A stretch of 64,000 nucleotides of DNA, taken from the NCBI RefSeq assembly GCF_001440475.1, contig NZ_LLYB01000081.1, positions 220,193 through 284,192 of the forward strand. The letters are read 5' to 3'. Origin of the DNA: Bradyrhizobium lablabi. GTDB taxonomy: Bacteria; Pseudomonadota; Alphaproteobacteria; Rhizobiales; Xanthobacteraceae. The position numbers were made by a program, and so were the translations under genes. Under the pieces are notes generated by a model that had not been told where the DNA came from, made no database searches, and saw only the letters and a list, made by a program, of their open reading frames with translations. Positions within the stretch are counted from its first letter, which is position 1, and each line of letters opens with the position of its first letter. Of the stretch, positions 2,571-10,337 are shown piece after piece.

Positions 2571-2617
2571 GTCTCTTAATCAGCGGGTCCCAGGTTCGAG
2601 CCCTGGTGCGCCCACCA
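2571..2617 (+). repeat. 3' half of tRNA-Lys(CTT), probable attachment site
   Basis: The stretch reads as a tRNA from the anticodon loop to CCA: loop 2573-2579 with anticodon CTT at 2575-2577, T stem 2590-2594 paired with 2602-2606, T loop 2595-2601, acceptor 3' strand 2607-2613, discriminator A at 2614 and CCA at 2615-2617. The 5' half is absent: bases before 2571 do not pair to form the anticodon stem, and there is no D arm. A tRNA homology block that starts at the anticodon loop and ends at CCA is the usual footprint of a tyrosine-recombinase attachment site, so this is read as an att copy, not a working tRNA. Confidence 0.82.
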
Positions 2618-3278
2618 AGCCTTTCAATAGCCTAGGGACCACGCGCGATAGCCATTCCGACAAATGGCCAAGTCGCCACGGCGCTCTCGCTCGGGAGAAT
2701 GGGGGGCGTCCCTTTCCAAGCAATCGGGAATTGCTTCCTCGGCGAGAACCCAGGCTGAACGCCAGAGCTCAGAACCGATCCGCCATAGAAGCGCGCCGCG
2801 TCAGCTAGACAACGCATGCGTTGGCGTGGCGCGTCACGATCCCGCCGCGTCGTCATGAATGGGGCCGTGCCGCATTTCAGTTCGTAAGACGGACGATTGT
2901 AGATTTTTGCCGACCGTGACGCCTCGGTAACACCAGGCGAAGGATGCAATCACAGGGAGAAAGTATAAAGTTCAAATCCTGGTTGTATCGAATCCTGGAA
3001 GCCCGTTGCCGATCCTGCGCGCGCATCGCCGCTGATGCCGACCGTGATAACTCTGCAGTTTCAATGGGTAGGCGGACGCGGCGATCGCCGCAACGTGGCT
3101 TGTGGCATTTGGGGGCGCATCGTTGTGACAAATTTGGTCCGTGTCAGGGCAGCAAATGTCGCTTGCGCCGCAATTGAAGCCTTCACTCAGGACTCGCAAT
3201 GCATCATTCATTTGCAGTCTCCGCGCCTGCTGCATTGTTACAATTCATAATCTCGCCAGATTGGAAGACCACTTGTGC

Positions 3279-3388: not shown

Positions 3389-4606
3389 ATGTGGTCGCGC
3401 AGCCTGTTGGTCCAGAATCTGTTGGTCCCGAAGAAGGCCAAGCGACATGACGAGGATGCGGACCGTGCCAATGCGGTCGCCGAACGACCGGCCTCTTCCG
3501 AGATGCAGATTGTGCCGCCGCTGAGCGGCAACTTTGAGCACGCGCTCGTCAATGCCGTCCTGTCCGGTGAGGTCGGAGCGGCGAGCAGATTTCTCGAACA
3601 CGTCTCGACGACGCTGTGGTCGATCGTCGTGAAGCTGGTAGGCGATGGAGCCGAGGCGGAAGCTGCATTCCTTCACATCGTCGCATCATTGAAGGCCGAC
3701 GATTATGCGCGGCTGCGGGGGTTCGACGGGCGTTCACGGATCACGACTTATTTGTCGCTTGTCGCTCGCGATGTTCTCGCCGACGAGTTGGCCGGGCAAT
3801 TCAGCAAAACGCCGCGCGAGGCGTGGGAGAGATTCTCGCGCTACTTCGGGGCTGACCTTCGTAGCCGAATCGCCAAGCAACTGCCGAGCAAACTCGGTAG
3901 AGCCGGTCGCGAGGACGCGTATCAGGAAGTATGCCTCAAGCTGATCGAGAATGATTTCCGTCGCATCCGCTCTTACGGAGGCCGCGGCAGCTTCACCGGC
4001 TATATTCTGACAGTGGTCGATCGTATCCTGATCGATCTCGTGCGGCGTGAAACGCCTCGACGGCGTATGCCCGCGGCGATTTCCCGTTCACCGCCGCTCG
4101 ACCAGGCGATTTATACGGCCGTGGTGTGGGAGGGGTGTCCGCTGGATACCGATCGGCTTGCCGCCGCGCTGCGCGGCAGGCTGGCGCAAGATCCGACGGC
4201 TGTTGACATCGCCGAGTCGGTGGCGCGCCTTGGCGGTATCGTGAGGCTGGAGCGCGCGTCGCCCGCGACCGAGGCCGTCTCGCTTGACGCATTGCTTGGC
4301 GAGGGCGGAAGTATTTCGATCGCGGATTCATCGCCAACTCCCGAGGACCGGCTGCTGCTCTTTGAGGAGGAAGAGCGTCGCGCTGCCCTCGTCGCCGCCA
4401 TCAATGCGGCAGCGGAAAAGCTTCCTTCCGATGAACGATTGTACCTTCAGATTGTATTTTCGGCCAATGAGCCGTTGCCAGCACGTGGCATTGCGCGGCT
4501 GATGGGTTGTCCGGTCGAGGACGTCTATCGTTTGAAGCAGCGCAGCCAGAAATGGTTAAAAGAAATTACGGTGCAATTGGAAAAGAATTCCGATATGTCC
4601 GTCTAA
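3389..4606 (+). CDS. Divergent sigma-70 family (ECF-like) sigma factor with duplicated region 2
   Basis: About 405 residues, roughly twice the length of a normal ECF sigma factor. Two segments each look like sigma region 2: residues about 50-135 (ending GRSRITTYLSLVARDVLADEL) and about 148-222 (GGRGSFTGYILTVVDRILID followed by LVRRETPRRR). A helix-turn-helix like region 4 lies near residues 335-395 (LPSDERLYLQIVF to RLKQRSQKWLKEI). Start ATG 3389 is preferred over GTG 3359 because AGGAG at 3377-3381 is well spaced. The following gene encodes a membrane protein with an anti-sigma-like N terminus, which supports the call. Only the second repeat looks like a usual promoter-binding region; the first may be degenerate. 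Target promoters are unknown. Confidence 0.72.
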   Translation: MWSRSLLVQNLLVPKKAKRHDEDADRANAVAERPASSEMQIVPPLSGNFEHALVNAVLSGEVGAASRFLEHVSTTLWSIVVKLVGDGAEAEAAFLHIVASLKADDYARLRGFDGRSRITTYLSLVARDVLADELAGQFSKTPREAWERFSRYFGADLRSRIAKQLPSKLGRAGREDAYQEVCLKLIENDFRRIRSYGGRGSFTGYILTVVDRILIDLVRRETPRRRMPAAISRSPPLDQAIYTAVVWEGCPLDTDRLAAALRGRLAQDPTAVDIAESVARLGGIVRLERASPATEAVSLDALLGEGGSISIADSSPTPEDRLLLFEEEERRAALVAAINAAAEKLPSDERLYLQIVFSANEPLPARGIARLMGCPVEDVYRLKQRSQKWLKEITVQLEKNSDMSV

Positions 4607-4630
4607 ACATGGGTATTGGAATTTTACCCG

Positions 4631-5410
4631 ATGATCGAACGCCCCAGTCACGAACCGGCGTCAGCGCACGCCGAGGACGACGGCCGCTCCGACCGGCTAC
4701 AGACGCTTGAGCTGCTTCGCGCGAAACTGTCGCGGACCATTTCCGAGGGGGTGGGGCAAGGCTCCGTTGCAGCAGGTCAATGGGGGGAGATCGACAACGC
4801 AGAGATCGCCGCGTTTCTCGACGGTTCCCTGCCGCGGGCAGAGTGGGATGCTGTCGCCACGAGACTTGTCAACGACCCGGCGGCCCGCGCGGAGTTGGCC
4901 GCGGCGGCGGACCTGCTGGACGAAATCCAGGCGCGGCCTGCGACAGTTCCTGCGGGCTTGATGGTGCAGGCGGCCGATGTTCTTGCTGCGCCGGAACAGA
5001 ACCGGCCGCAGGTTTCGGCCGTGTCGGTCGCTCCGGTCGCTTGGTACCGACGTTCGGTTGCGTGGTCCGGCGTCGCTCTCGCCGCTCTGGCTGTGATCGC
5101 GATCCCGGCTGTCATGAAGATGGTTGGAGACGGCGCACCGATCGCGGTCAGGCCGGACGACGCCGGCGATGCGATGGGCCGCGGAATCGTGGCGACTCCG
5201 TCCAGTCCGGCCAAGAAGAAAGATGCTCAGTCGTGCGTTGACGCGAACGAACAGGCCAGGAAGTCGACACCCGATAACACGGGAAGCGACCGCGGTACTG
5301 TAACCGAGCATCCTCGAGGCGAGGCGCCCACCAAAGACAATGATCCATGCGGGCCAAAGCCGGTGGGCGCCGACAAGCAAGAGCGCCCCGCTTCCGCAAG
5401 ACCGAACTGA
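4631..5410 (+). CDS. Probable membrane anti-sigma factor
   Basis: About 259 residues. Residues 53-100 form an acidic helical segment (DNAEIAAFLDGSLPRAEWDA) of the type found at the N terminus of anti-sigma factors, but without the HxxxCxxC zinc motif. A single hydrophobic segment at about 142-162 (SGVALAALAVIAIPAVM) would place the rest outside the cytoplasm; that part is low in hydrophobics, rich in K, D, P and N, and has two cysteines. The gene starts 24 nt after the sigma-factor stop. ATG 4631 is used; a TTG at 4616 is in frame. The anti-sigma role is inferred from position and topology, not from a sequence signature. Confidence 0.6.
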   Translation: MIERPSHEPASAHAEDDGRSDRLQTLELLRAKLSRTISEGVGQGSVAAGQWGEIDNAEIAAFLDGSLPRAEWDAVATRLVNDPAARAELAAAADLLDEIQARPATVPAGLMVQAADVLAAPEQNRPQVSAVSVAPVAWYRRSVAWSGVALAALAVIAIPAVMKMVGDGAPIAVRPDDAGDAMGRGIVATPSSPAKKKDAQSCVDANEQARKSTPDNTGSDRGTVTEHPRGEAPTKDNDPCGPKPVGADKQERPASARPN

Positions 5411-5588
5411 CCTGAACTCGACGCTTCAAGTCGTCCGGACCGCATCTCGGTTATGGCCGGTAGGTTGTGATCCGATCACAAGGACGAGAGGGAGACGTCG
5501 CAATCGTTGGCGACGGACCAAAAGTGAAAGTCTGTCCGTCTGCTCCAGTGTTGCGTCCAAACTCACACCTTGCAAAGGAGAAAAATTA

Positions 5589-5945
5589 ATGCGCCACACA
5601 ACGACGAAAGGTGCGATCAGCTCACGCTTGAGTATGCGCGGAGCGCTGCCGATGTTGCATGCGGCAGGTGCTGTTCTGCTCGTCATTGCCGTCGCCGGGC
5701 CTGCACGTGCGCAGAGCACCGGTATCGCTGCCTGCGACGACTTCTTGACAAAATACGATACCTGCGTGACGTCGAAACTTCCGGAGGCGCAACGTGCGAC
5801 CTACAAGGCGCAACTCGACCAGACGCGCAAGACGTGGCTCGACATGGCCAAGAACCCGTCAACGAAGCCAGCCATGGAACAGAGCTGCAAGCAGACGATG
5901 GACGCGATGAAGGCATCGCTGCAAACCTTCGGCTGCACGTTCTGA
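5589..5945 (+). CDS. Small exported protein with four cysteines, function unknown
   Basis: 118 residues starting at ATG 5589 behind an AAAGGAG ribosome site. A signal peptide with a hydrophobic core (AVLLVIAVAGPARA) is followed by a likely cut after ARA. The mature part is about 75 residues with four spaced cysteines (ACDDF, DTCVT, SCKQT, FGCTF) and lysine-rich helices, which suggests two disulfides in the periplasm. I do not recognise the family. It lies 178 nt after the anti-sigma-like gene in the same direction; coregulation is possible. Confidence 0.7.
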   Translation: MRHTTTKGAISSRLSMRGALPMLHAAGAVLLVIAVAGPARAQSTGIAACDDFLTKYDTCVTSKLPEAQRATYKAQLDQTRKTWLDMAKNPSTKPAMEQSCKQTMDAMKASLQTFGCTF

Positions 5946-6261
5946 TGTAGCTGCACAAGAAGGCGTGGGGCATCCGTTCGTCCCATCCTTCGATGGCCTG
6001 GAGGTCATCCCACTAGAGCACGATCCGAAAACACCCGCCCCGCACTTTGTTGCGGGGTGGGATATTGGTTTTCCCTTGCGAGAATTGCGGTTGCGCGGAG
6101 ATCACGCTCAGGCAGCAAGCCAAAGCGTGATGACAATCCTGAATCCGCCGCGCTATTGGTGCAAGATGAGACGAGTGCTTCCGACGAACGGTCTCGAAAG
6201 CAGGGGCGTGCGCAGGGAAATGTTACGACCGTGATGGTCGCGACTGCAGCGACTATCTCGC
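5946..6261. other. Intergenic region between convergent genes
   Basis: About 316 nt separate the small exported protein (+) from the caspase gene (-). It holds the hairpin at 6034-6061 and a short stretch near 6015-6030 that resembles one arm of the repeat at 8201-8268. No supported gene was seen. Confidence 0.5.
6034..6061. terminator. Hairpin between convergent genes
   Basis: Bases 6034-6044 pair with 6051-6061 over 11 bp, with one G-T pair and a 6 nt loop. It lies between converging genes and has no clear T run, so it is a terminator-like or mRNA-end hairpin that could serve both strands. Confidence 0.5.
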
Positions 6262-7884
6262 TTATCGCGATTTGATTTCCCGGCAGCGGGCCGCGCGCAG
6301 TCCTGTCAAGGCGTCGCGCTGCAGCAGTATCGGACAAGCATTGCCAAGGTAATAGCTCTCGCCGGCCTCGCGCGCGACCTGCGCTACTACTGCGGTGCCG
6401 AGTGTGTTCCAGCAAGCTTCCGTGAGCGCTCCCGCTGCCTTGGCCTCATTCCAATCGGGGGGGCGGCCGAGCGCGGCAATGACGGCGTCCGTCAGGTCCG
6501 GATCCGCACAGACCGCCGCATTCGCTTCGGCCGGCGCCTCGATCGCGATGGCGAAAAATGGCGTGGCGGCGGAGCGGTTGAGCTTGCGTCCGACGAGACG
6601 GGCGGCGTCACGCGCGAGGTCGACGCGCACCATACCAACGTTCTTGGGCGTTGTGCGCACGAAGCTCTCCAGTTGCCGGCGGCAATCGGCGGCGTAGGCC
6701 TGCTCAAGGCAGTCGCCGAACGCGGACAGGCCGATCGACGTGCGCAGGGCCAGGAATTTCGGGTTGTCGTTCAGGATCGGAAAGGTCGTGGCATAGTGCT
6801 CGAGCGCCGCAAGCCGATCGTCAAATGGATGCGGCGACGTTGCAAGCGGAGTTAATTCGCCGATCGCGGCTTGCTCGGCCAACGAAGCCCAATGGGCGTC
6901 GCGCGCCGTCGGCCTCACCTTTGTCAGGTGGCCGCGGAGCTCGCTCCAGCTCTTCGCGGCCGCCAGCGCGTCAAGCTCGGCGGTCTCAGGATCGGCCGGG
7001 GAAGCCGGCACTGCCTCGGTGGCGCGCTTGTCGACGTCGGAGAGCAGAGCCGTGGTCTGTGGTGGCGGTGGGTCGGCAGGTGTGAGGCGTCCGCTTGCGT
7101 TGAGCACGATTTCGCCAACAACCTGATCGTAGTAGGCCGGCGTTTGGTCGCGACCAACGCTCGCCGCCAGCTGCCGGACCTCGAGTTGCAGGCGCTTGGC
7201 AATCTGCACCAGCGTCAGGTCCTTCTCCGCCAGCCGGAGTATCAGGTTGCGCGTGAACACGGAGTTTGAGGCGCGCTCGGTGCTGGATAGCCGGTCAAGC
7301 GCGGTCTGCTTGGCGCCGGCGGAGAACATGATGAACACGCCTTCGGCGGGCGTCATCGCGGCGAGGCCGCCGCTGCCCTTGAGCCCGCGTCCGCCCGGCC
7401 GCTCGAACGGATTGTTACGGCAAGCGTCGAGCACGAGCACCACGGTGCGGGCGCCGCGCCCCTGCAGCCGGTCGATGATCCGGCCGGCTGGAATTGCGGA
7501 ATCGCGGATCAGCTCTTCCTGTCCCTCGCGGACCTCCGGGATGTCCGTCGGCAGCAGGTAGTTCTGGCCCTGGATCTCGAAGCCGTGTCCAGCGAAGAAG
7601 AACAGCGCGGTGTCGCCAGGCTCGATCGCCTTGTCGAAGGCGAGCATGGCCTCGCTCATGGCACGGCGCGACTGGTTCTCTACGGAAATCACCGAGAAGC
7701 CGAGCTTGCGCAGTGCGGTGCCGACCGCGCGCGCGTCGTTGACGGCGGTCTGCAGCCTTGGAATGTTCTCATAGGCGTTATTGCCGACCAGCAGGGCAAC
7801 GCGTTTCTCCGCGCGCGCGGTTGTGGCGAAACCTATCGCGACGCTCAGCGCGAGGATCGCAAGGCACAGGTGTGTTCTTGGCAT
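6262..7884 (-). CDS. Exported caspase-family (C14) peptidase
   Basis: About 540 residues with start ATG at 7884, giving a clean signal peptide (CLAILALSVAIGFATTARA); a longer upstream in-frame extension lacks features and is rejected. The caspase fold follows at about 27-250: the strand KRVALLVGNNAY, the catalytic histidine His100 in FFFAGHG, and the catalytic cysteine Cys155 in VLVLDACRNNPF. The remaining 270 residues contain no domain I recognise, carry several cysteines and may bind partners or peptidoglycan. It is expected to act in the periplasm as a cysteine peptidase, probably with basic-residue preference as in bacterial metacaspases. Its neighbours are membrane and exported proteins of unknown role. 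Confidence 0.9.
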   Translation of the reverse strand: MPRTHLCLAILALSVAIGFATTARAEKRVALLVGNNAYENIPRLQTAVNDARAVGTALRKLGFSVISVENQSRRAMSEAMLAFDKAIEPGDTALFFFAGHGFEIQGQNYLLPTDIPEVREGQEELIRDSAIPAGRIIDRLQGRGARTVVLVLDACRNNPFERPGGRGLKGSGGLAAMTPAEGVFIMFSAGAKQTALDRLSSTERASNSVFTRNLILRLAEKDLTLVQIAKRLQLEVRQLAASVGRDQTPAYYDQVVGEIVLNASGRLTPADPPPPQTTALLSDVDKRATEAVPASPADPETAELDALAAAKSWSELRGHLTKVRPTARDAHWASLAEQAAIGELTPLATSPHPFDDRLAALEHYATTFPILNDNPKFLALRTSIGLSAFGDCLEQAYAADCRRQLESFVRTTPKNVGMVRVDLARDAARLVGRKLNRSAATPFFAIAIEAPAEANAAVCADPDLTDAVIAALGRPPDWNEAKAAGALTEACWNTLGTAVVAQVAREAGESYYLGNACPILLQRDALTGLRAARCREIKSR

Positions 7885-8267
7885 GAATGTTCTCGTCGAT
7901 GCTGTGGCGGGCTCATGGAGCGGCGGTCTGGTCCGGTTGGCTAAACTGTTTGGTGGTTGAGCGCCATCATCCGTCAACTCATTGTTGGTGAGCTCTGTGG
8001 CCGGATGATGTGCATGCTCCGGGTCGGCATGCTGGCCGCGAACTTCATCATGGGCCCGTAACGGACGTTGAGCACAGCAAGTAATGAAAATGGTCCAGAT
8101 TGCTGATGGTCACGCTGATGACGAGCCGAGACGCCCCCACCGGCAGGCAAGGGGCGCGATGCGTTCAAGATGAATCGTCATCGCGCCCTAGCTTATTGTT
8201 GAGCATGATCTTTTCGGAAAATCGGTACCAATCGGGGTCCGACGGGCGTGATTTTCCGGATCATGCT
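7885..8267. other. Intergenic region upstream of caspase gene
   Basis: About 380 nt upstream of the caspase gene on its strand. It probably holds the caspase promoter, though no clear -35/-10 pair could be picked out, and its right part is the long palindromic repeat at 8201-8268. No supported gene was seen. Confidence 0.5.
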
Positions 8268-8268
8268 C
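8201..8268. repeat. Dispersed-type palindromic repeat
   Basis: Arms 8201-8223 and 8250-8268 are reverse complements except for an extra TTTT in the left arm. Both ends read GAGCATGATC towards the centre, and CGGAAAATC follows. The pattern resembles a repeat I associate with Bradyrhizobium and relatives. Its right end overlaps the stop codon of the minus-strand gene at 8268, so as RNA it would form that gene's 3' hairpin. Confidence 0.75.
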
Positions 8269-8702
8269 TAGGCGATACGATAGAGAAACGTAGCGACGAT
8301 CGTCCATAGGCCGAGAACGATCGCGGCATAACCGAGCACGGTTTGATAGGGGACAATGGCAGCGCGAATCTGCTCGCCGCGCTGTGCCGCTTCAACGCTG
8401 CGGTTGAGAATGTACTTCGTCAGCAAGGCATAGCCGAGCAGCAGGCCGAGCGAGGCAATCAGCAGGCCGGTCGCGAGGTAGGTCAACCACCAGACAGGCA
8501 CATAGCTGAACCAGTTCAGGTTGATGATCGCGCTGATGATGATCCAGGCGCCCCAGAGGCAGGTTATGAATCCGAACCATCCCTGGTAAGGTACCATCAT
8601 TTCGATATAGGCCTTCGCGTCCGGACGCCTCGCGACGATGCTCGAAGCAGCCGCAAGGGCGCCGAGCGCAAGCAAAACCAGCCCAGTAATCAGACCCGAC
8701 AT
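8268..8702 (-). CDS. Small four-helix inner membrane protein, function unknown
   Basis: 144 residues with start at 8702 (MSGLITGLVLLALGALAA) behind an AGAGGA ribosome site; an upstream in-frame extension is not needed. Four hydrophobic segments are visible at about 1-20, 45-62, 70-95 and 120-140, with a basic and polar loop before the last. The stop codon is part of the palindromic repeat. It has no catalytic motif and I do not recognise the family. It is codirectional with the caspase gene and with the exported protein upstream, but the gaps on both sides are over 150 nt, so it may be its own unit. Confidence 0.7.
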   Translation of the reverse strand: MSGLITGLVLLALGALAAASSIVARRPDAKAYIEMMVPYQGWFGFITCLWGAWIIISAIINLNWFSYVPVWWLTYLATGLLIASLGLLLGYALLTKYILNRSVEAAQRGEQIRAAIVPYQTVLGYAAIVLGLWTIVATFLYRIA

Positions 8703-8861
8703 TGGATTCCTCTCTTTCTTGACAAGATAGCGCACCAAATTGCGGTGATATTTCAAGACAGCCTGCGGCCGTCGCCACCACATCACGATAGAGAGACGGA
8801 CCGGCGTAGATTTTTCTCCGCGTCGGCTGCTGTAAATTTGTGCCCCAGGTAAAAGATTCAG

Positions 8862-9587
8862 CTACAGGAGGTCACCGATCGCAGACTTGAGGCGCGCCGA
8901 GGATGGCCGCCCTGTAACCGCCTCCTTCGCCTTGACCTCCACGATCAGCGCGTCGTCCGCCAGCTTGACGTCAACCTGGTCGGCGTCGCGGATGACGACG
9001 CGCCGCAATTTCGCCGCGATGATCTCGCGTGCGATCGGTGAGGTGAGCATCTGCTCCAGCGTGCTTCCGGTGACCGCGATTGCGTCCGCCATGGCGGACC
9101 AAGCGGCGGAGTCATCGGACAGGCGCGGCGCGTCGAGCGAGATCGTGAGCGCCGGGGCGCCCGCGCCCCTGAGCTTGCGCCCGAGGGACTCGGCCTCGGT
9201 CTCGGCCTGCTCCTTCGTTGCCTTCTTGACGACGAGCGGCTCGGCTTCCTGGTCGCGATACGCGTCGGCCGAACCGCCCGACAATTTGTCGCTGAATACC
9301 AGGATGCGGCCCGTTTCGTAGATCCGAAGAACCGAGACGCCGTCATCGCGCTTGAGGGTGATCGAATTGTATGGAGCCGGCTCGGCGGTCACGGCCAGGA
9401 TTTCGTCGGAGCCGTCGAAGCGCAGCTTGATCGGCGTTCCCATGCGGTCGATCACAAAGCCCATCAATCCGGTGCCGGTGCTGTAATGGCCGATGCGAAG
9501 CTGTGGGCCGTTCTCTGCGGCGAGGTCGCCGTGGCTGATGATCAAGGTGAGGGCGGCGCCGACGATCATTCGGAAACGTCCGGACAT
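8862..9587 (-). CDS. Exported protein of unknown function
   Basis: 241 residues from ATG 9587; a longer upstream start is rejected because this one gives a signal peptide (MIVGAALTLIISHGDLAAE) and has GAGGT upstream. The mature protein begins with a beta-rich part (LRIGHYSTGTGLMGFVIDRM, then KLRFDGSDEILAV) that includes an SVLRIYETGRILVF stretch. A charged helical part follows (KKATKEQAETEAESLGRKL). There are no cysteines in the mature part and no catalytic motif I can name. The family is not recognised. Confidence 0.65.
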   Translation of the reverse strand: MSGRFRMIVGAALTLIISHGDLAAENGPQLRIGHYSTGTGLMGFVIDRMGTPIKLRFDGSDEILAVTAEPAPYNSITLKRDDGVSVLRIYETGRILVFSDKLSGGSADAYRDQEAEPLVVKKATKEQAETEAESLGRKLRGAGAPALTISLDAPRLSDDSAAWSAMADAIAVTGSTLEQMLTSPIAREIIAAKLRRVVIRDADQVDVKLADDALIVEVKAKEAVTGRPSSARLKSAIGDLL

Positions 9588-9866
9588 GGTGGACCTCACA
9601 GCATCACGACAATCCGCGGGATGCGGTATTGCTGATAAGCGCAGGGAGAAGTGAGAAATAAATGCGGAGTTTTTGCGGCCGACACTCACGTTGAGTAGGG
9701 CGCATTCATTGTTCAAAATGCTTCAATCAAGATGCATCACTCCAGGTGCTGCGATGACGCAGGAAAATCGCCGCCACTGTCCGTCTATCCCTAGGTCAGT
9801 CACAATGGCCGGACGCCGTGCTCGCACGGGATGCGCGCATGTACATCTAATTCGGAGTTGGCAGCT

Positions 9867-10298
9867 ATGAATATCCACGTCGGTCTCGCCCTCGTCGGGC
9901 TCACGATCCTCTCCTCGGTAGCGTTTGCGCAATCGCTCAAGGACAAGGAGTATTTCGCGGACCAGGAGAAGTATCTCACGGGAGAAGCCACCACCACCAA
10001 CGAGCGGTGCGGCAACAGTCTCACAGCGAAGTTCGATTGGTCGAAGCCGCCGACGCCGGAAGATCGGAAGACCTACAGCGCCTACGGTTACTGCGGCGTA
10101 GCTCTCGAAGCCGTGCGGCGCGTCTGTGACTCCCAGGCCGGCAAGGAAGCCGTCAAACAGAAGATCAAAAGCCTGACTTGCCGTTTTGGAACGCAGCGCA
10201 CGGTTGCGCTCAAGGATGGCACGATCGAGTACGAGGTCAATTTCAATTCGAGCAACGACGCCGACTACGTGTTCGAGTATCTACAAAACAATTTGTAA
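9867..10298 (+). CDS. Small exported cysteine-containing protein, function unknown
   Basis: 143 residues from ATG 9867 with GGAG at 9854-9857 upstream. A signal peptide (MNIHVGLALVGLTILSSVAF, cut near AFA-QS) precedes a mature domain of about 120 residues with four cysteines (ERCGN, YCGVA, VCDSQ, LTCRF). The spacing suggests two disulfides. The C terminus is beta-rich (TVALKDGTIEYEVNFN). I do not recognise the family. Only a few bases separate its stop from the second tRNA-like fragment, so it is the last gene inside the proposed island. Confidence 0.68.
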   Translation: MNIHVGLALVGLTILSSVAFAQSLKDKEYFADQEKYLTGEATTTNERCGNSLTAKFDWSKPPTPEDRKTYSAYGYCGVALEAVRRVCDSQAGKEAVKQKIKSLTCRFGTQRTVALKDGTIEYEVNFNSSNDADYVFEYLQNNL

Positions 10299-10303
10299 GC
10301 GCC

Positions 10304-10326
10304 TTCGAGTCCTGGTGCGCCCAACA
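10304..10326 (+). repeat. Second tRNA 3'-end fragment, possible att copy
   Basis: 23 nt match bases 2595-2617 with 21 identities: the T loop, the T-stem 3' strand and the acceptor 3' strand are kept, while the terminal CCA reads ACA. It is in the same orientation as the first copy, 7.7 kb away. Bases upstream of 10304 no longer match. It is interpreted as a decayed attachment-site copy closing an island; chance occurrence is unlikely but cannot be excluded by eye. Confidence 0.6.
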
Positions 10327-10337
10327 ACCATTGCTGG

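Follow-up and report, generated by a model that had tools for sequence, protein, structure and literature searches.

In the RseA/DegS/RseP system, a single-pass anti-sigma factor has a periplasmic tail that is the target of a protease, the site-1 protease being a PDZ-serine protease and not a caspase. The locus described here is a seven-gene cassette in a 64,000-nucleotide stretch of Bradyrhizobium lablabi DNA (contig NZ_LLYB01000081.1, here contig 81, positions 220,193 to 284,192; this whole stretch is called the window) from a genome of 8.8 Mb in 135 contigs. It joins a sigma factor of the extracytoplasmic function (ECF) type to a membrane protein that resembles an anti-sigma factor, which, like RseA, is predicted to be single-pass, with a tail that we propose as a protease target. 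Close by is a caspase predicted to be exported. Our contention, to which we give a probability of about one half, is that the cassette is an ECF-type envelope signalling switch, carried as one unit and triggered by a protease; that it holds a sigma/anti-sigma module with a regulon of exported proteins we would assert with considerable confidence.

Much of what such a switch requires is already in print: ECF/anti-sigma signalling, protease genes beside ECF sigma factors, caspase/sigma operons and caspase/ECF systems. In groups of the ECF54 type, genes for subtilases and for caspase-like (CHAT) proteins are regularly found next to the ECF sigma gene, and proteolytic control has been proposed for them (PMC8999054). 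The cassette shares with them the protease gene beside an ECF sigma factor; however, ECF54 is described there without an anti-sigma factor, whereas an anti-sigma-like gene is present in all 13 copies of the cassette (a comparison by description only), and the predicted export of the protease and the duplicated sigma-2 domain are further differences. Metacaspase operons with sigma-70 genes occur in Myxococcus, Anaeromyxobacter, Haliangium, Sorangium, Ralstonia and Fibrobacter (PMC3501461) and combine, as the cassette does, a caspase homologue with a sigma factor, but the passage on them names no anti-sigma factor, signal peptide or shared promoter, and Bradyrhizobium figures there merely as metacaspase-rich. 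Likewise, EACC2/caspase systems bring a caspase together with an ECF sigma factor, and proteolytic activation has been proposed for them (PMC8195603). Their caspases are fused to EACC2 and to variable C-terminal domains, whereas Pfam places no such domain in the cassette caspase, which reaches 64.1 of 140 bits with the NCBIfam model for EACC1-associated caspases, below its cut-off.

That a protease can free a sigma factor by cutting its inhibitor is an established principle, exemplified by the CRISPR systems Csx29-Csx30-RpoE (PMC10028731) and CalpL-T-S (PMC11417357). No CRISPR protein was found among the seven cassette genes with Pfam, NCBIfam or PADLOC. Unlike the cassette, those two systems are reportedly cytosolic and triggered by RNA or cyclic oligoadenylate (cOA). 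Within Bradyrhizobium itself, EcfF-OsrA of B. japonicum pairs an ECF sigma factor with a membrane anti-sigma factor that has two critical cysteines, and controls a small regulon (PMC3420878). The cassette resembles it in its putative membrane anti-sigma factor with two conserved cysteines and in a small predicted regulon; OsrA has six transmembrane segments against one predicted here, and the EcfF promoter motif is of the type GTAAC-N14-15-CGT. Neither this cassette, nor an exported caspase with a membrane anti-sigma factor, nor an ECF sigma factor with tandem sigma-2 domains is described in the literature searched, a scope that left out most subscription papers and in one search depended on a narrow phrase. 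Rhizobia are rich in caspase homologues (PMC3501461), and these mostly have no known role; where one is tied to a defined candidate regulator, inhibitor and promoter, as here, its role becomes directly testable.

Gene content, conservation and a shared promoter motif

All genes named in a sequence-only reading of the window, which had taken them for a candidate envelope stress or cell-fate module, are open at the positions collected in Table 1. Pfam and NCBIfam profiles identify the sigma factor, the caspase and the DUF4908 protein firmly and the anti-sigma-like protein weakly, and give no identifying match for two small proteins (sp1 and sp2) or the four-transmembrane protein. Calls of export and of membrane topology are hydrophobic segments above a hydropathy cut-off. 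By this measure sp1, sp2 and the caspase each have an N-terminal hydrophobic segment and the membrane protein whose gene starts at 8702 has four, which agrees with the predicted export of the first three; the DUF4908 protein, also read as exported, looks to the eye as if it had a signal sequence, yet none of its segments reaches the cut-off. The description of two small proteins as disulfide-type fits as well, sp1 and sp2 having four cysteines each, invariant in the eight of 13 orthologues that were aligned. The cysteines of sp1 fall into two pairs, Cys-x9-Cys and Cys-x15-Cys, within sequence that looks helical; the protein matches UPF0203 below threshold (E 0.14).

Of 265 Bradyrhizobium genomes, 13 (our own included) have the sigma factor at identities of 79-100%, and in every one of them the six partner genes adjoin it, all seven being complete and constant in order and orientation. 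DUF4908 occurs in exactly the same 13 genomes. So does sp2 at identities of at least 81%, with four distant relatives elsewhere (in G223, G177, G017 and G046) that have other gene surroundings. Beyond these the genus holds sigma relatives at 57-60% identity in three genomes, one of them cut by a contig end, and at 38% in two, with seven further weak matches at 25-33%; no match to the sigma factor was found in a comparison set of 40 genomes outside the genus. The wider searches scored 4, 5 or 7 candidates per genome, and absences outside the 13 are accordingly soft. Within our own genome there are 15 places with a caspase domain and 26 with sigma region 2, and the cassette caspase is the only one of the 15 with a sigma region-2 place within 10 kb on its contig. 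One copy of the DUF4908 gene (genome G220, locus L037) has an internal TAG, and the gene may be dispensable there.

A common motif accompanies this linkage. In aligned upstream regions, GTCCGTC precedes the anti-sigma gene (34-35 nucleotides from the start), sp1 (45-57), the membrane-protein gene (97-99) and sp2 (86-93) in all 13 cassettes, and was not found before the caspase or DUF4908 genes. The sequence-only reading had supposed a shared promoter at five starts, of which 5589, 8702 and 9867 do have the motif, as does the anti-sigma gene, and 7884 (caspase) and 9587 (DUF4908) do not. With both the neighbourhood and a common promoter motif thus borne out, its module holds; its interpretation as a whole is partly supported, and none of the results bears either way on a role in cell fate. 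In an unguided test of 7-mers, GTCCGTC alone was kept in 13 of 13 cassettes in four of the seven upstream regions, and 60 control draws of coding windows from these genes yielded two at most. Each of the four sites in the window, with spacings read by eye, fits GGA(n)(n)-N15-17-CGTCT and has a run of A following the GGA, which is the layout of an ECF promoter. A pattern derived from the cassette sites themselves, AAAAN{10,12}GTCCGTCT, matches 8 places in the 8.8-Mb genome, 5 of them inside the cassette (2 for the reversed pattern as control). Across the 265 genomes, where overlapping A-runs were counted more than once, each of the 13 with the cassette gives 4 to 9 matches, as against 1 of the 252 others with at least 4.

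The motif also outlasts the cassette. At the junction of the sigma and anti-sigma genes it is present in 18 of 19 loci with a readable sigma 3' end, ahead of the anti-sigma gene and from 10 nucleotides before to 66 nucleotides after the sigma end point (which is approximate for L049 and L068). These include five divergent relatives, two at 57%, two at 38% and one, in G311, from another order, the lowest sigma identity being about 30%; the lone exception is G714, where the neighbours are an nSTAND1 protein and a small protein of a different kind. Judged by eye, the junction motif encodes Ser-Val-stop in the cassettes and likewise in the 38% loci (L049/L050), lies outside the sigma open reading frame in the 57% loci (L046, L047) and falls in another frame in G311 (L068). 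Because frame and coding status differ among loci, it is apparently the DNA and not the protein that is conserved; that the motif is kept merely as code for the sigma C-terminus is ruled out by its position in L046/L047 and its frame in L068. Very probably, therefore, though a shade less surely than the module itself, the cassette sigma factor reads the GGA/CGTCT motif.

Table 1. Features of the cassette and its borders, in window coordinates.
Feature	Position	Strand	Details
Motif copy at left cassette border, facing outward	2887..2908	-	Fifth copy; exact GTCCGTC in 3/13 cassettes
24-nucleotide block about 130 nucleotides 5' of sigma start	3241..3264	+	Nearly identical in 13/13 cassettes
Sigma factor, 405 residues	3389..4606	+	Degenerate sigma-2 ~66-135, sigma-2 ~147-232, sigma-4 ~318-403
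Motif before anti-sigma gene	4579..4604	+	GGAAA, 16 bp, CGTCT; GTCCGTCT at 4597-4604, inside sigma 3' end
Membrane anti-sigma-like protein, 259 residues	4631..5410	+	One transmembrane segment ~143-166; tail Cys202, Cys240
Motif before sp1	5515..5541	+	GGACC, 17 bp, CGTCT
sp1, 118 residues, predicted exported	5589..5945	+	Cys49, Cys59, Cys100, Cys116
Hairpin resembling a two-way terminator, between the convergent genes for sp1 and caspase	6034..6061		Hairpin scan, which overall was at chance level
Caspase (Peptidase_C14), 540 residues, predicted exported	6262..7884	-	His100, Cys155
Four-transmembrane protein, 144 residues	8268..8702	-	Hydropathy
Motif before the 8702 gene, may also serve caspase	8794..8819	-	GGAGA, 16 bp, CGTCT
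DUF4908 protein, 241 residues, probably exported	8862..9587	-	Pfam
Motif before sp2	9762..9786	+	GGAAA, 15 bp, CGTCT
sp2, 143 residues, predicted exported	9867..10298	+	Cys48, Cys76, Cys87, Cys105

The sigma factor, its membrane partner and the protease

The dedicated sigma factor of the sequence-only reading is confirmed by Pfam Sigma70_r2 (E 9.1e-9, 35.4 bits against a cut-off of 24) and by NCBIfam sigma70-ECF (E 5.9e-20, above cut-off), which spans residues 156-402; region 4 matches Pfam at E 0.077 in the full protein and 0.0092 in its C-terminal part, both below cut-off. Its sigma-2 domain is duplicated, residues 66-135 aligning with 147-219 (hhalign 93.6%, E 2.1e-7) where controls of both sigma-2 halves against the rest of the protein gave 0.1%, and the first copy is degenerate (Pfam E only 0.026). 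A structural model (mean predicted local distance difference test score, pLDDT, 71.5; predicted template-modelling score 0.42) has helices that would suit two bundles of the sigma-2 type and, after them, a sigma-4, and a fold search with it returned sigma factors at template-modelling scores of about 0.2 and root-mean-square deviations above 20, which adds little. Since a second, degenerate sigma-2 breaks the rule of one sigma-2 and one sigma-4, we use the label 'ECF-type' only, and the protein would not count as a standard ECF (group 4) member. The N-terminal copy appears to be a family trait, because the distant relatives in G311 and G714 match the sigma profile from positions 24 and 53. At the G714 locus (L067 5289-9702), in another family, a tandem-sigma-2 relative stands beside a 152-residue protein and an nSTAND1 NTPase (8.5e-71), with no transmembrane anti-sigma protein. 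Upstream of the cassette sigma gene there is no GTCCGTC motif in the gene's own direction; the conserved 24-nucleotide block may be its promoter or operator.

The gene for the membrane partner follows after 24-25 nucleotides in all 13 cassettes. The protein has a single hydrophobic segment starting at residue 143, no match in Pfam, and a match to the NCBIfam 'antisigma' model (E 6.3e-4) that at 19.8 of 100 bits is below cut-off. An alignment of 16 such proteins (12 of the 13 from cassettes and four relatives), reaching down to 18% identity, retains only 12 invariant columns, and two of these are the tail cysteines Cys202 and Cys240. In the 12 caspase-type (cassette) proteins aligned, Arg184, Lys196 and Arg252 are invariant, and the positions of Arg184 and Lys196 are not basic in both proteins of the subtilase type described below.

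The caspase is a member of Peptidase_C14 (Pfam 5.7e-28, 98.6 bits against a cut-off of 21.4) with no other Pfam domain, and the catalytic dyad that the sequence-only reading had called intact is exactly in place, His100 and Cys155 being invariant in 13 of 13 orthologues. Its closest solved structure is human MALT1 (3.4e-13), and caspase Asp50 and Asp153 align with two Asp residues of MALT1 that we take to be Asp365 and Asp462 of the pocket for P1-Arg. Given this alignment, the enzyme is expected to be paracaspase-like and to cut after Arg or Lys. It is probably co-transcribed with the membrane-protein gene at 8702, behind which it lies.

Outside the cassette, a different protease takes the corresponding position. 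After the 57% sigma/anti-sigma pair, G143 and G285 have a convergent, exported-looking subtilase (2.3e-45 and 1.5e-45) where the cassette has its caspase, together with an exported-looking protein of 234-271 residues and more copies of the motif nearby; in G196 the 38% pair is followed by a protein resembling Kazal-type inhibitors (23.8 bits, cut-off 21). The duplicated sigma-2 and an exchange of caspase for subtilase beside the same pair would inform the evolution of protease-coupled signalling modules.

A candidate protease-triggered switch and its alternatives

In proposing how the cassette might work, we suppose that the single-pass anti-sigma protein would hold the sigma factor at the membrane. 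The trigger would be the exported caspase cutting the anti-sigma protein after Arg or Lys in its periplasmic, disulfide-looped tail, and intramembrane proteolysis would then release the sigma factor. Once free, it would recognise GGA(n)(n)-N15-17-CGTCT promoters ahead of the anti-sigma gene, sp1, the 8702 gene (probably on into the caspase) and sp2, and its output would be more inhibitor together with proteins that are almost wholly exported or membrane-bound; with the anti-sigma gene under sigma control, this would amount to negative feedback, i.e., a homeostatic loop. Release of the sigma factor by proteolysis, an idea already raised in the sequence-only reading, is favoured indirectly by the subtilase that replaces the caspase at two related loci and by the acidic residues of the S1 pocket that the caspase retains. 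The step from linkage to cleavage is speculative, and an action of the caspase, or of the protease in its place, on the tail of the anti-sigma protein we put at somewhat below even. More tentative again is the fuller proposition, that an extracytoplasmic caspase is the dedicated first-step protease for an anti-sigma factor with a disulfide-closed loop, so freeing a tandem-sigma-2 sigma factor, and that the protease slot is interchangeable between caspase and subtilase while sigma, anti-sigma and promoter stay constant.

Several observations weigh against the protease-triggered switch. The anti-sigma protein is assigned from where its gene lies, from its topology and from a profile match below threshold; its structural model is of low quality (mean pLDDT 42.8), and a profile search of solved structures brought up no relative of it (best E 0.64). 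No motif precedes the caspase gene, which starts 173-462 nucleotides behind the membrane-protein gene. No protease was noticed in the 38% loci (G196, G212), in G311, in G714 or in the truncated G230, where open reading frames were profiled in part. As to the promoter, the count of GTCCGTCT in the window is not significant alone (5 against 2.07 expected; 6 of 100 shuffles reach 5), the GGA element is lost in some cassettes, such as L045 before the anti-sigma gene, where the A-run stays, and another resident ECF operon has a similar promoter site. Finally, conserved tail cysteines need no protease.

This last point leads to the main rival, a disulfide switch, which fits nearly as well as a protease trigger. 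Here the Cys202-Cys240 disulfide, made or lost under periplasmic oxidative or thiol stress, would free the sigma factor, with the caspase and the cysteine-rich small proteins as its outputs. The place of both cysteines among so few invariant columns and the four conserved cysteines in each of sp1 and sp2 speak for it; however, a structural disulfide would be equally conserved, the linked exported protease in both branches of the family would be left unexplained, and the redox precedent OsrA, with its six predicted transmembrane segments, is no relative of the cassette anti-sigma protein. We consider redox control less likely than not, though the strongest of the alternatives.

A second alternative makes the caspase a killing or defence effector that the sigma regulon puts into the envelope, in a cell-fate module whose trigger is unrelated to it. 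The cassette is patchy (13/265) and mobile-looking, here beside a tRNA-Lys island array, and its caspase matches the generic caspase model of PADLOC (2.3e-15). Yet no other cassette protein matches PADLOC at 0.01, the caspase start is without the motif, and export makes an intracellular defence role unlikely; we regard this explanation as improbable. A known anti-phage defence system was rejected, the one generic caspase match being accompanied by no multi-gene PADLOC set.

Another ECF sigma factor might conceivably be the main reader of the cassette promoters, with the cassette sigma serving elsewhere. The obvious candidate is encoded on contig 134, where a very similar site (L064 1501-1524; contig 134:100250-100273) lies about 108 nucleotides 5' of a gene for an ECF sigma factor of 189 residues, followed by a transmembrane protein, and a like site is found in the cassette-free genome G023. 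Cross-talk with this sigma factor is possible. However, the motif at the junction of the family's own sigma and anti-sigma genes (18/19 loci), which is kept in two other gene contexts and in another order, and its enrichment in cassette genomes make the wholesale substitution a poor prospect, poorer than the effector. That the genes are ordinary neighbours on a shared islet without common function would suit four transcription units on both strands but is scarcely credible given a conserved common motif and a strict all-or-none linkage in 13 genomes whose flanks are for the most part unlike, and a chance neighbourhood is rejected by the gene order (13/13), the confinement of DUF4908 to the same 13 of 265 genomes and the conserved 7-mer.

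Genomic setting and minor features

On the left, similarity among cassettes stops at about 2850-3232, and on the right at 10299-10310. The flanks are mostly unlike, both sides being common only to L040/L041, with partial sharing between L034/L035, L036/L043, L035/L036 and L043/L045. Because similarity stops at these borders and the flanks are shared by few genomes, the cassette is a discrete, bounded unit in about ten surroundings. None of its seven genes is a mobility gene. The sigma factor has no match on plasmids, in a search that did not extend to phage records, and a plasmid home for the cassette is rejected on that ground. Distances between its genes correlate across cassettes at 0.46 to 0.93, kinship being ignored, and no known RNA element was found at gathering score. 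Between the membrane-protein and caspase genes, at 8196-8270, there is an insertion that resembles a palindromic repeat, the palindrome being judged by eye.

An intact tRNA-Lys(CTT) gene occupies 34367-34442 of contig 81, and its 3' end recurs in five exact copies, at about 109, 133, 143, 184 and 222.8 kb, the last at window positions 2571-2617. The interval 34367-222809 looks like some 190 kb of stacked tRNA-Lys islands, with the cassette just to the right of the last copy. Here the cassette lies between two direct copies (29 nucleotides, 86%) of the tRNA-Lys 3' end, at 2595-2623 and 10304-10332. Elsewhere, tRNA-Lys lies about 3.5 kb before the sigma gene in two genomes, intact in G103 and as the 3' end only in G104.

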